Assembly (NCBI GenBank): GCA_018266765.1
Contig: JAFDZU010000081.1
Coordinates: forward strand, 1-35,501
Length of the DNA: 35,501 nt
Reading direction: 5' to 3'
Source: Bacteroidota bacterium
GTDB taxonomy: Bacteria; Bacteroidota; Ignavibacteria; Kapaibacteriales; UBA961
Shown here: piece after piece, positions 605-5,592 of the stretch
Numbering within the stretch: position 1 is the first letter of the stretch
How the letters are laid out: every line of letters begins with the position of its first letter
Translations under genes and position numbers: made by a program
The notes under the pieces: model-generated
What the model was told of the DNA's origin: nothing
Database searches by the model: none
The model's input: only the letters and a program-made list of their open reading frames with translations

Positions 605-1621
605 ATGAAAAGTTTATTTCTATTCATCATGTGCCTTATTACTATTTTGGGCAGTAATAGTTGCTCCGAAAACAGCATATCAACAAAACCTGTCGTTCTG
701 CAAAAAGGAGATGGAATTCTTTCAGGAAGATGTCTGCTTTATACATATCATCGTGATTCAAGCTGGCATAAGGATCAATTATCACCTTCAAATAACGCAT
801 CTAATTGCGCTGGAACACTTGTCAAATTGTTGGGGACACAGATTTCCGCCATTACCGATAGTACGGGGAGGTGGATACTGAGAGGAATTGAGTCTGGTAC
901 ATATTCTATACAATTTACCCATTCGGGTTTCGATTCAATTACAGTTAATTCCTTAGTTCACAATGGTCGAGACAGTGTTTCATTAGTATGGACTGATGTA
1001 AACCCTTTTGGTCAAACATGGGAATATGAGACTGTTTGCCTTGCTGAGCCACCTGCTTTAGTGAGTGTTATAGATGCCGATGTTTCTGCATTACAACGTC
1101 TTACACCGTATCCAATTGGAGGAAATTATGACACTTCCTATAACTGGCAGTCTCAATTTACAATAGAAGTTAAAGCCCCAATTTCGACCGTACAATCAAT
1201 GCTGTCAGTTGGATATGTTGCAATTATTTCAACACATACACCTTTGGATATAAGCGAATTGCCTAAAAATGGAACTATAGTTCAGCCATGGCAAGGAAAC
1301 CCGAATGGTTTCATAGCATATACCCCAAACAACGATAAAATGGTATTTCCAAATGGTGATAAAACAAAAAGGTATTTTGAAATTAGCGGAGGTACAATAA
1401 CTAACTCGCAAATATCTGTTAATATAGCTGAGTATGCCGCTAAATTTGGAATTTCCTTATCAGATAAACCGCAGTTATATCTCCATATTATTCCAATGCG
1501 ACTGGGGTTCACTCGCGAATGGAGAGATCGTCCCGAAGGATATAGCGGCGGGCCGTACGGAACACCACAAATAGATTGGGTAGTAGGAAATCCACAGTCA
1601 TTTCCCATTGCGTGGCAGTAG
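605..1621 (+). CDS. Lipoprotein with carboxypeptidase-regulatory-like domain
   Basis: The 338-residue product begins with a lipoprotein-type signal (MKSLFLFIMCLITILGSNSC; acylated Cys probably C20), so it should be membrane-anchored outside the cytoplasm. Residues of about 70-125 form a small beta-sandwich like CarboxypepD_reg/CNA-B domains (VKLLGTQISAITDSTGRW, then GTYSIQFTHSGFDSI). The rest is unassigned. It is a clear paralogue of the lipoprotein at 4597-5592: both have the GxWxxxGIxSGxYSxxFTxSGFD block and end in PIxW. The start is supported by AGGAGAG upstream. It follows the remnant of a T9SS cargo gene, as its paralogue follows an intact one, so the pair probably act together at the cell surface. 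The exact role is unknown. Confidence 0.82.
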   Translation: MKSLFLFIMCLITILGSNSCSENSISTKPVVLQKGDGILSGRCLLYTYHRDSSWHKDQLSPSNNASNCAGTLVKLLGTQISAITDSTGRWILRGIESGTYSIQFTHSGFDSITVNSLVHNGRDSVSLVWTDVNPFGQTWEYETVCLAEPPALVSVIDADVSALQRLTPYPIGGNYDTSYNWQSQFTIEVKAPISTVQSMLSVGYVAIISTHTPLDISELPKNGTIVQPWQGNPNGFIAYTPNNDKMVFPNGDKTKRYFEISGGTITNSQISVNIAEYAAKFGISLSDKPQLYLHIIPMRLGFTREWRDRPEGYSGGPYGTPQIDWVVGNPQSFPIAWQ

Positions 1622-1746: not shown

Positions 1747-1758
1747 GGAGTTTTTATG
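1747..1758 (+). promoter_or_regulatory. Ribosome binding site and ATG of the phase-variable cargo gene
   Basis: GGAG at 1747-1750 lies 5 nt before ATG 1756. From this ATG the frame reads MKHFVSAVSADRRPQ, passes through the 7-bp repeats and hits TAA at 1840-1842 after 28 codons. The ATG at 1884 has no Shine-Dalgarno sequence and would cut off the signal peptide, so 1756 looks like the original start. Confidence 0.68.
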
Positions 1759-1780
1759 AAACACTTTGTTAGCGCGGTTT

Positions 1781-1830
1781 CCGCAGACCGCAGACCGCAG
1801 ACCGCAGACCGCAGACCGCAGACCGCAGAC
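1781..1830 (+). repeat. Seven tandem copies of CCGCAGA (simple sequence repeat)
   Basis: Seven perfect copies of CCGCAGA occupy 1781-1829, with one extra C at 1830. The unit is 7 bp, so each gain or loss of one copy shifts the downstream frame. With 7 copies the ATG at 1756 is out of frame with the cargo gene (1756 to 1884 is 128 nt). With 2, 5 or 8 copies the distance is a multiple of 3 and the product is continuous. Three units encode the heptapeptide ADRRPQT. This is the arrangement of a slipped-strand phase-variation switch. Confidence 0.9.
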
Positions 1831-1883
1831 GGTTTATATTAACCCACCATCTTAGCATTGCAATAATTTTTGCAATTGCAATT

Positions 1884-4571
1884 ATGACAAACTATCAAGC
1901 AAAGTCACAGCCACCGCCTCCAGGTTGGCTTTATAATTCCCCGGGTTTTCCTAATGGAAATTTTTGTGACCCTCCGGGCTTTACCTCATGGAATGGATAT
2001 GTCGGTATCCGAATACCAACACCTGTCAAACCGCTCCATATTTATTCAGGTTTATGCAATGCAGAGCAGATTACCTACGATCCCGCTGTCGCACGACTTC
2101 AAACTGATGCCGCAGGTTTTCATTTTGGACAAAGTTCCATTCAATTCTGGTCGGGTACTTTCGGTACTCTTTATGACTGGCAAGTCGCTTCCATTAAACC
2201 TATTACTAATTCTGCTTCAACTATTTTCAATGGAACAAACATAGGTAATTGGAAAGGAGGACTTGCATTCTATTGTTCAGGCATAGGTGCAGGAGAAGCT
2301 CCCCAAGCTGACGGTGCAGAGGTAATGCGGTTATATGATCAACGGGTAGCTATTAATTCTACAATAGCGAAAGGAAGGTTAGATATTAATACTAATCCAA
2401 GTACGACAGGAGCTGGTGTCCAACCACGATTTATCTTTGATAATGTAGAACAGCGCGATCCTGTATTGAAAATGTACAGACCATCAGGTACATCTGGAAA
2501 TGCTGAATTTGGCGATTCATATCCTCTTTGGATGCAATATGAAACAAATGCACCCTATGGTCTTGGCTATGCTCAATTTCATATAAAAGGGAGGCAATGG
2601 GCAGTTGGAACACTGGGTGATGAAACGGAATCTGAGATGATACCTCGTCTAACAATATTAACTGGGAATGGGAATGTTGGAATAAATCAAATTCTTCCCG
2701 ATGCAAGATTTCAAGTATCAAATGGTTCTGTACTTTTTGACGGTACTATTGGTGGAACTCCTGGGCAATGGCTTGGCTCGGGTGGCTCTGCTGTACTATC
2801 GGAGCTTGGTGCAGGTACACGAATGATGTGGATACCCGAGAAAGCGGCGTTTAGAGCAGGGAGTGTAGAAGATGCCCAATGGGAAACAGTAAAAATTGGA
2901 AATAATAGTACGGCATTGGGATATAGTACAATTGCATATAATGATGGTTCGTTAGCTGTTGGGATTGGTGCTGTTGCTGGTTTAAATGCTTCTTTGGTTC
3001 CACATACATATATTGATGATGAAGAAGGAAGTAGTATTGTACATTGTAGTATTGCTTTAGGTCATTCAACAGTTGCGGATGGTACCGACGCATTTGCTAC
3101 AGGATTTGAATCTAAGGCATTAGCAAATCAAACTATAGCGATTGGTACTGGTGCAATTGCATCCCATGATAATAGTATAGCTATAGGTTGGAGTGTAAAT
3201 GCAGATGCAACAAATAATATTGTTATCGGAGGTGGAGTAAACTCATTTTTAACGGGAGCATTAGTAAATCCAACACCTAATTCAATAGGTTTTGGCTATA
3301 ATAGTACTTACCCAACTATGATAATTACTGATGCTTATGGTTCTTATGGAAATGTTGGTATAGGAACTACTACACCAACGAATACACTTGATGTGAATGG
3401 TTCAGCTTCTATTGGGTATGGGGCATCTCCGGTTTCCATCGGCACCAATTCTCTTGCAATACAAAATAAAGTTGGGATTGGGACTGATGCACCAATTGAA
3501 GCTTTGAATATTATTGGGTCAGGTGGAAACAATCAGGTAGTAATTTGGAGTAGTGACCAAGAAATAGCTACATCAGTTGATGATGATATTGATTTAGCTG
3601 TGGAAGAGAAAGTTATTATTGGATCAATATCTAAATTAAGTTCCACCAATAATTATAAACTTCAAGTTCATGGAAGTGCATTTAAAGATGATGGTAATAA
3701 TGTATGGAATACGACTTCTGATTCACGTTTTAAGAAAAATGTTGCTCCCTTTACAGATGGACTATCAAAAATTTTACAAATAAAACCAGTTTGGTTTGAG
3801 TATAATGGGAATTTTGGACTTGAAAGTGTAAAACCAATAATAGGTGTTATTGCCCAAGAAATTAGGGAAATAGCACCTTATACAGTTAGCGAAGATACTC
3901 TTAGTCGAACAATTAAAGTCAAGGAAGCAAAACGATACCAAGTTGATACAATCGATTCTGTCAAAATTCATATACCAGATTATACAAATCATTCTAATGA
4001 TGGTCATCATAACTACAAAGATTCTATTATTCTAAAGCCAGTTAAAAAATGGGTAATAGAACCACCAGAGTTTACCCGTGAATCTACATCTATACTAACA
4101 TATAATGCAAACGCTTTATGGTATATTTTAGTTAATTCTGTTAAAGAATTGGATTCATTAAGAAAAATCGAACAAGAACAATCTATATTGCAATACAGTG
4201 AACTCTTACAATCAAATGATTCTCTTAAATTTCTTCTACAAAAACACGAAGAACGAATTGCACGATTAGAGGTGCAAAATAATATAAAACAAAATGAAAT
4301 TTCTGATGTTATTCTAGAACAAAACACTCCAAACCCCTTCAGTAATATCACAACTATTACTTGTTATATACCAGAACAAATTAAAGGACAACCGCAGCTA
4401 ATTATTACTCCAAGTAATGGGGGATTATCACTATTTTCATTTGATGTAGTTAAAGGAGTACCACAAGAAATAAGAGTTGATGCAAATACATTAGATACTG
4501 GCGTATATATTTATAGTATTGTCTTACAAGGCAATATTCTCGCAACTAAAAAAATGATAATCATTAAATAA
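1884..4571 (+). CDS. T9SS-secreted fibre-like surface protein (YadA-like head, S74 chaperone), probably phase-OFF
   Basis: In the frame of this 895-residue ORF, the codons just before 1884 encode a typical signal-peptide core (LSIAIIFAIAIM, then TNYQAKSQ). The natural start is therefore probably ATG 1756, now out of frame because of the 7-bp repeats. Residues of about 335-455 hold YadA-head-like repeats (SIALGHSTVADG, QTIAIGTGAIASH, NSIAIGW). A Peptidase_S74 chaperone starts at S612 (SDSRFKKN) with KPVWFEYN and IGVIAQEIREIAP; in this family the Ser and nearby Lys drive self-cleavage. A coiled coil follows at about 745-810. The C-terminus is a type A T9SS sorting domain (LEQNTPNPFSNITTI to KKMIIIK). 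The whole suggests a trimeric, self-processing fibre exported by T9SS. It is followed 25 bp later by a lipoprotein gene. Ligand unknown. Confidence 0.85.
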   Translation: MTNYQAKSQPPPPGWLYNSPGFPNGNFCDPPGFTSWNGYVGIRIPTPVKPLHIYSGLCNAEQITYDPAVARLQTDAAGFHFGQSSIQFWSGTFGTLYDWQVASIKPITNSASTIFNGTNIGNWKGGLAFYCSGIGAGEAPQADGAEVMRLYDQRVAINSTIAKGRLDINTNPSTTGAGVQPRFIFDNVEQRDPVLKMYRPSGTSGNAEFGDSYPLWMQYETNAPYGLGYAQFHIKGRQWAVGTLGDETESEMIPRLTILTGNGNVGINQILPDARFQVSNGSVLFDGTIGGTPGQWLGSGGSAVLSELGAGTRMMWIPEKAAFRAGSVEDAQWETVKIGNNSTALGYSTIAYNDGSLAVGIGAVAGLNASLVPHTYIDDEEGSSIVHCSIALGHSTVADGTDAFATGFESKALANQTIAIGTGAIASHDNSIAIGWSVNADATNNIVIGGGVNSFLTGALVNPTPNSIGFGYNSTYPTMIITDAYGSYGNVGIGTTTPTNTLDVNGSASIGYGASPVSIGTNSLAIQNKVGIGTDAPIEALNIIGSGGNNQVVIWSSDQEIATSVDDDIDLAVEEKVIIGSISKLSSTNNYKLQVHGSAFKDDGNNVWNTTSDSRFKKNVAPFTDGLSKILQIKPVWFEYNGNFGLESVKPIIGVIAQEIREIAPYTVSEDTLSRTIKVKEAKRYQVDTIDSVKIHIPDYTNHSNDGHHNYKDSIILKPVKKWVIEPPEFTRESTSILTYNANALWYILVNSVKELDSLRKIEQEQSILQYSELLQSNDSLKFLLQKHEERIARLEVQNNIKQNEISDVILEQNTPNPFSNITTITCYIPEQIKGQPQLIITPSNGGLSLFSFDVVKGVPQEIRVDANTLDTGVYIYSIVLQGNILATKKMIIIK

Positions 4572-4596: not shown

Positions 4597-5592
4597 ATGA
4601 AAACAACATTTAAAATTACAACGATTGCGGTTACTTTAATATCATCCTTTTTCTTAAACGGTTGTTCTAAAAAAGAAGATCCTGTTAAACCAAATAATAC
4701 TCAAACTACTGGTGATGCAACTTTAACGGGAGAAATCCAGCTAGCACGAGCTGAAAAAAAGGATTACAATATAGTTGATGAAGACTGGGACGGTATAAAA
4801 GTCGAACTTCTCGGAACTCAACTCTATGCTGAAACTGATATTCATGGAAAATGGAAAATTAGTGGTATTGATTCCGGTTCTTACTCGGTACGATTTACGA
4901 AGAGTGGTTTTGATACTTTACAATTAGACAATATAGTGCTTAAATCTCAAGACTCAATTCGGTTATTACAAACTATAAAAGATTCAACAGGAACACTATC
5001 ACAATCATATGATATTCTCTTTTTAGCTGAATTACCTTCAAAAGTTGAATACCTTTCGGGCAATGCTAAAATTTTACAAAAAATTGTTGAAATAAAAGAC
5101 AGTCACGATACTACTCAAATAATAAAGCAAGATACTCTCTATACACTTCAATCAGATTTTACGATTAAACACACTTCACAGTTCGCATATACTGAAAATT
5201 ATAATAATGTTCGATATATGTTTTGTCTAAGCGAAAAACAGAATCTGGATCAATCTGAAATTCCTCTTACATTTTCACCATGGAAAGCATGGCAGAATGA
5301 ACCGACGGGTTTTGTAAAAGTTCCAGGGAAGGAAGGTGTTAATCAAGGTAGTATTCGTACATTTTATGTAAATAATAACTCACAAATAAACTCAATAGAG
5401 TTAAATTTACCTGAATATGTGAATAAGCGTAATATAGCATTTCGGTATGGAATGCCTCTCTATATTCACGTTATTTATAATTGGGGTGGAATGAAAAGAG
5501 TTATTAATCAGGATAAAAAAGCTGTATGGACAGTAGCAGGCCCCGTAGAATTTTACAGCCCAATACAAACAATTCCTATTGAGTGGAAGTAG
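4597..5592 (+). CDS. Lipoprotein with carboxypeptidase-regulatory-like domain, paralogue of 605-1621
   Basis: The 331-residue product has a clean lipoprotein signal ending FFLNGC (C23), followed by a charged tether (SKKEDPVKP). Residues of about 65-115 form a CarboxypepD_reg-like sandwich (VELLGTQLYAETDIHGKW, then SGSYSVRFTKSGFD). The C-terminal half matches the paralogue upstream (PWKAWQNEPTGFV versus PWQGNPNGFI; both end PIxW). AAGGAGAT precedes the ATG, and only 25 bp separate it from the T9SS cargo gene, so the two are very likely co-transcribed. If the cargo gene is translated only in some cells, this lipoprotein may or may not follow, depending on polarity. A partner, anchor or assembly role for the fibre is inference; no enzymatic motif is visible. 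Confidence 0.82.
   Translation: MKTTFKITTIAVTLISSFFLNGCSKKEDPVKPNNTQTTGDATLTGEIQLARAEKKDYNIVDEDWDGIKVELLGTQLYAETDIHGKWKISGIDSGSYSVRFTKSGFDTLQLDNIVLKSQDSIRLLQTIKDSTGTLSQSYDILFLAELPSKVEYLSGNAKILQKIVEIKDSHDTTQIIKQDTLYTLQSDFTIKHTSQFAYTENYNNVRYMFCLSEKQNLDQSEIPLTFSPWKAWQNEPTGFVKVPGKEGVNQGSIRTFYVNNNSQINSIELNLPEYVNKRNIAFRYGMPLYIHVIYNWGGMKRVINQDKKAVWTVAGPVEFYSPIQTIPIEWK

Follow-up and report, generated by a model that had tools for sequence, protein, structure and literature searches.

A probable simple-sequence contingency locus in the export leader of a surface fibre gene, with counterparts across an order of uncultured bacteria

How can a long and apparently intact gene for a surface protein be read when a well-placed start codon upstream of it leads only to a stop? 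The question is raised by a locus near one end of the window, a 35,501-nucleotide stretch of DNA (contig JAFDZU010000081.1 of assembly GCA_018266765.1) from a member of the Kapaibacteriales, whose genome is referred to here as G000. The features on which the answer depends, with the basis for each, are as follows.

1707-1755, + strand: 5' stretch common to the other leader loci of the genome, including the Shine-Dalgarno (SD) sequence GGAG (1747-1750); 1707-1795 is 94% identical to a composite leader query, and CTGGAG...ATG occurs at six places in the genome
1756-1780, + strand: start codon and constant leader, 25 nt (MKHFVSAV plus 1 nt); from the sequence, and from a repeat-less orthologue that starts at the equivalent CTGGAG...ATG
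1781-1829, + strand: slip-prone array of CCGCAGA x7, the putative switch; from the sequence and period-7 simulations
1840-1842, + strand: TAA closing the frame of ATG 1756 at n = 7 (OFF); from translation
1830-1910, + strand: predicted ON-frame signal peptide RFILTHHLSIAIIFAIAIMTNYQAKSQ, hydrophobic core 1857-1886; from translation and hydropathy, with matching signal peptides at C61 and C50
1884-4571, + strand: surface fibre gene, with YadA_head at about 3126-3191, Peptidase_S74 at about 3717-3887 and a C-terminus that resembles, by resemblance only, a type IX secretion system (T9SS) sorting domain at about 4296-4568; from Pfam and alignment with relatives
4597-5592, + strand: CarboxypepD_reg-like gene, 25 nt downstream of the fibre gene; from a Pfam match below the gathering score, and a paralogue of window 605-1621 (E 6e-36)

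Seven perfect CCGCAGA units (7.1 copies when the partial unit is counted) lie between the ATG at 1756 and the signal-peptide core. The period-7 run extends over 50 bases, whereas the longest obtained in 200 Markov-1 simulations of the window was 19, and the tract is thus perfect, slip-prone and longer than chance, as is characteristic of simple sequence repeat (SSR) contingency loci. From ATG 1756 the frame reads MKHFVSAVSADRRPQTADRRPQTADGLY and meets its stop 28 codons in. The frame that contains ATG 1884 has no stop between 1773 and 4568 (932 codons, with 895 intact codons counted from 1884) and holds, directly 3' of the array, RRFILTHHLSIAIIFAIAIMTNYQAKSQ, a signal peptide by inspection. 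No ATG, GTG or TTG was found in this frame between the last in-frame stop and 1884, and ATG 1884 itself is without an SD; a start there drops the hydrophobic core, the best 10-residue Kyte-Doolittle mean being 0.73 from ATG 1884 and 3.26 when the core is included. As 25+7n must divide by three, the gene is ON at n = 2, 5, 8 and so on and OFF at n = 7, and both this arithmetic and the translations show that copy number sets whether the gene is read in frame. The initial annotation had counted the same seven copies, credited ATG 1756 with a good ribosome binding site, placed the stop at 1840 for seven copies with entry into the signal peptide at 2, 5 or 8, and discounted ATG 1884 as lacking a binding site and losing the signal core; on each of these points it was correct.

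The locus is therefore very probably, judging from its sequence, a simple-sequence contingency locus, with the repeat placed in the signal-peptide leader of a gene for a surface fibre. The ribosome would be recruited by GGAG 1747 and begin translation at ATG 1756, and replication slippage on the CCGCAGA array in living cells would be expected to gain or lose units. Where n is 2 modulo 3, translation would continue across the array into the signal peptide, giving an exported protein, whereas at any other n it would stop within about 30 codons, leaving a peptide of some 30 residues and nothing displayed. The assembled n = 7 would thus be an OFF allele, which the gain of one unit or the loss of two would turn ON.

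An orthologue from the same genus (G002:C107), with approximately 50% identity over the aligned N-terminal part, carries CTGGAG and an ATG followed by MKENSHSLSSCSTTPFRFFVNTGQQKVTPWSKFVLCILAIFSFTIISYQAKAQ, in frame and with no repeat, thus indicating that the true start lies upstream, at the equivalent of 1756. In the tree of the N-domain the window gene and this orthologue are sisters (100/99), which implies a gain or loss of the repeat inside the genus. Approximately 270 nt upstream of the start of the orthologue there are three tandem copies of GTTGAAATCGTGC.

Within G000 the leader is not confined to this gene. Allowing up to one mismatch, six occurrences of the sequence CTGGAGTTTNTATGAAACACTTTNTTAG were found, a genome search located runs of at least three CCGCAGA at leader loci only, and six or more further loci carry the leader, making seven or more in all. 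At C61, 10 CCGCAGA units stand ahead of FILLTRCFSIAMFLAIAMMISPSVLFGQ, in an OFF frame, whilst at C50 a scaffold gap falls inside the repeat and is followed by a signal peptide nearly the same as that of C61. Contigs C12 and C14 break off within the repeat, and C1, C9, C70, C27 and C80, as well as C12 at its other end, break off in the upstream stretch common to these loci; with eight contig ends in the leader family (C1, C9, both of C12, C14, C27, C70 and C80), the assembly evidently breaks there and undercounts the family, and the true number of cassette loci is probably around ten. A variant leader at C12:81 has a constant part 12 nt longer, ATGAAACACTTTGTTAGCGCGGCTACTCAAAACACAG, ahead of the repeat, and as the extra length keeps the frame it is an indirect sign that the leader is coding. 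Over the 70 nt ahead of the repeat, the window gene and C61 share 91% identity, as compared with approximately 31% for the mature parts. In a second genome, G045 (JAIBAE01, Bacteroidota bacterium isolate SSF3), four paralogues show 90-95% identity in the leader and 37-52% in the mature part. That genes so divergent should have near-identical leaders within one genome suggests gene conversion or duplication of the cassette. Copy number differs between the paralogues in both genomes, at 7 and 10 in G000 and at 7 (ON), 7 (ON), 8 (OFF) and 11 (OFF) in G045. With a cassette of leader, repeat and signal peptide fronting several different surface genes, each could be switched independently.

Both leaders of the species that are fully assembled (n = 7 and n = 10) put the gene in the same OFF frame, which counts against a switch and raises the alternative that the fibre gene is a pseudogene, silenced for good when repeat expansion put its leader out of frame. 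The C61 gene points the same way: besides being OFF, it has a frame that breaks after 346 codons, and may be a decayed member, an assembly error or the site of a second switch. A pseudogene is nevertheless very unlikely. The window gene retains its 895 intact codons and a perfect repeat tract, and ON and OFF paralogues stand side by side in G045. Furthermore, comparison of C50 with C61 over 180 codons in the ON frame gave 17 synonymous and 10 nonsynonymous codon differences (p=1e-4, on an assumed neutral share of 27%), thus indicating that the ON frame is under protein constraint.

In relatives of the order the same position is occupied by other units, namely ACTTCGG, CTCACGG, GAGTACAA, TTCAA, ATTT, AT, TA, TC, CT, poly-C and poly-G, so that about ten different units of 1, 2, 4, 5, 7 or 8 bp are found at one fixed site across the order. 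Apart from G045, the scored loci of the relatives are as follows.

G060: (ATTT)15, OFF
G070: poly-C tracts C11 and C13, poly-G tracts G11 and G12, and one interrupted C tract, all OFF
G085: (AT)7, OFF
G083: (TA)8, OFF
G003: (CT)19, ON
G044: (CTCACGG)8, ON
G099: (GAGTACAA)5, ON
G053: (TTCAA)4, ON
G094: poly-G, G9, OFF
G005: poly-G, G10, OFF, with an alternative in-frame ATG that has no SD
G021: (TC)9, OFF; (GCTACACA)3, ON

Two tracts at contig edges, (AGAGTACA)9 in G098:C22 and (CCACT)9 in G021:C83, were excluded from the ON/OFF scoring, and (GTTTTGG)7 in G084:C3 was excluded from the count as it lies outside the leader of its gene. In nearly every relative an SD and ATG sit just upstream of the tract; a clear SD is absent at two loci, G021:C76 and G053:C31, which counts against the switch. 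The 14 genomes with leader SSRs (G000, G003, G005, G021, G044, G045, G053, G060, G070, G083, G085, G094, G098 and G099) represent 13 genera and four families according to their assigned labels. Homologues from other orders and phyla match mainly through their YadA-head and S74 regions; none had a multi-base leader SSR, and near the start only A homopolymers were seen. Among the relatives examined, leader SSRs thus look specific to the order.

The association was assessed on 40 genes of the N-domain family with a visible 5' end and, as controls, the 230 other ORFs of the same stretches, the loci having been sampled early on as close homologues and later by profile rank, not by SSR. A leader SSR was found in 22/40 family genes, paralogues among them being non-independent, as compared with 7/230 controls (Fisher p=9e-16). 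The 22 comprise 21 from a scan of 200 nt and G003:C76, whose tract lies past the scanned 200 nt, and they include short or interrupted tracts at G021:C76, G053:C31 and G070:C67. Four of the seven control SSRs are A/T homopolymers, and another (G000:C88, a C12 tract) is the leader SSR of a different secreted family. The period is not a multiple of three in 21 of the 22 leader SSRs, the exception being an interrupted poly-C, and the assembled alleles divide 7:15 between ON and OFF, matching the one third expected from random frames. The reading of the locus as a contingency locus, put forward in the initial annotation, predicted a repeat-less relative starting in frame at the equivalent ATG, paralogues alike in leader but unlike in copy number and frame, unit lengths that do not divide by three and about a third of assembled alleles ON, and all four were observed.

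These results also bear on whether a dispersed, neutral element between genes could account for the repeat, with translation beginning elsewhere. It is true that the upstream part of the leader is dispersed and that C12:40855 and C80:14240 are relic leaders without a fused signal peptide; both relics are continued by a different dispersed sequence, which contains inverted repeats (CGGTCGGTTGTTACAACCGA, GTCAGTTGTAACAACTGAC). However, the ON frame before 1884 offers no ATG, GTG or TTG, the orthologue starts at the same SD and ATG, and unrelated non-triplet units occupy the same place in other genomes. A neutral intergenic repeat family does not fit the bias seen in position, frame and period; it was rejected on that ground, and is less probable still than a pseudogene. 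Even more doubtful is an error of assembly in a gene that is simply on, with n fixed: G000 is a draft whose contigs break in CCGCAGA repeats, but an array of 49 bases is short enough for ordinary short reads, and the order-wide non-triplet pattern and the one-third share of ON alleles are independent of any single count. Least credible of all is that the short peptide at n = 7 is the product, the array region acting as a regulatory uORF followed by reinitiation at 1884, or else through programmed frameshifting, for although ATG 1884 lies approximately 40 nt past the stop and n = 7 and n = 10 give one frame, reinitiation there would yield a protein without a signal peptide, ON frames are directly fused in other genomes, and programmed frameshifting was rejected when inspection by eye of the frame-0 codons after the array revealed no slippery heptamer.

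For the contingency locus, the nature of the protein that would be switched is also of importance. Pfam recognised YadA_head and Peptidase_S74 only, and weak partial matches to EmaA, Ata and YadA models were obtained. The fibre may have an adhesive role. Pfam scans found no C-terminal YadA anchor barrel, by which type Vc trimeric autotransporters are defined, and the protein was not assigned to that class. AlphaFold modelling of the N-domain on 14 sequences yielded a structure of unusably low quality (pLDDT 48). The C-terminus (ILEQNTPNPFS...GVYIYSI...KKMIIIK) has the look of a sorting domain and is kept in relatives. The initial annotation had treated the protein as T9SS cargo. In favour of this, the genome encodes the SprA translocon (TIGR04189 above cut-off at C43), but no curated T9SS sorting-domain model of Pfam or NCBIfam matched the protein; export by this route is plausible and indeed likely. 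The CarboxypepD_reg-like gene at 4597-5592 is possibly co-transcribed with the fibre gene, and would hence be subject to polarity. The window carries two tandem pairs, 140-586 with 605-1621 and then 1756-4571 with 4597-5592, the first consisting of an adhesin C-terminal remnant and a CarboxypepD_reg-like gene and the second of a full adhesin and a paralogue of that gene. The remnant (C86:389-580) is 44% identical to fibre residues 831-894. Adhesins in G084 and G021 are also trailed by similar small lipoprotein-like genes.

A second set of tracts was found in G000, where four of the five poly-C/G tracts of at least 9 sit in the leaders of other secreted proteins.

G000:C8:48348-48360, poly-C/G leader tract
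G000:C37:14487-14498, poly-C/G leader tract
G000:C59:23375-23389, poly-C/G leader tract
G000:C88:6051-6062, poly-C/G leader tract

The proteins, putatively a second leader-switched family, are secreted, 230-308 aa in length and have no Pfam match, and the layout of SD and ATG, tract and signal peptide is that of the adhesin, the start at C37 being hidden by a gap. Leader switching thus looks to be a general habit of the organism.

Across the order, a switch at the same site with many units in related uncultured bacteria looks like a clade-wide means of varying the cell surface. We consider it reasonably likely that this constitutes a surface phasome built on export leaders, in which the cassette is copied or homogenised within a genome and the unit is replaced outright between genera; selection would then act on the instability of the frame and not on any given repeat. 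In these bacteria, known from metagenome assemblies, the site of the switch appears fixed and the repeat unit repeatedly replaced, and the evolution of hypermutability thus becomes testable on apparently parallel origins at one site, which can be compared for unit, length and switching. There is a practical consequence: with two thirds of such genes out of frame as assembled, annotation pipelines will miss or truncate them, and the cassettes are points at which assemblies break. Escape from phages or predators that bind the fibre is a natural hypothesis for its switching.

Most of the slip-strand contingency loci known so far come from host-adapted pathogens and commensals. In the opa genes of Neisseria, CTTCT repeats sit within the code for the signal peptide. 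It is these repeats that govern expression of the opa multigene family (PMC5953494). The arrangement described here is similar in that a family of several surface loci per genome (at least six in G000 and four in G045) carries one repeat in the signal-peptide leader, each locus with its own frame-shifting SSR and, in all likelihood, independently switched. It differs in having a YadA-head/S74 fibre in place of the Opa barrel, a 7-mer unit, and a unit that changes from genus to genus at the same site; with YadA_head and Peptidase_S74 the only Pfam domains, the fibre shows no homology to Opa proteins and is opa-like in its working only. The neuO gene of the E. coli K1 prophage CUS-3 has an AAGACTC heptanucleotide in its 5' coding region, is ON if n is divisible by 3 and is OFF in 65.6% of genomes (PMC13001214). 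Both systems therefore share a heptanucleotide in the 5' coding region, a frame set by n modulo 3 and an OFF share of about two thirds, but neuO is a single, prophage-borne gene for a cytoplasmic O-acetyltransferase with an unrelated unit, and no domain is shared between the fibre and the products of opa or neuO. With trimeric autotransporter adhesins such as YadA, EmaA and Ata the fibre has YadA_head repeats in common, whereas its S74 chaperone, its sorting-domain-like C-terminus and the absence of a detected YadA anchor domain set it apart. Our literature search found no paper on phase variation in Kapabacteria or Ignavibacteria, nor any that linked SSR phase variation to type IX secretion, and part of a 2025 review describes SSR phase variation chiefly in host-associated species (PMC11868660). 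SSR contingency switching itself is already known; what is new here is the clade, the cargo and the turnover of the repeat unit at a fixed site.
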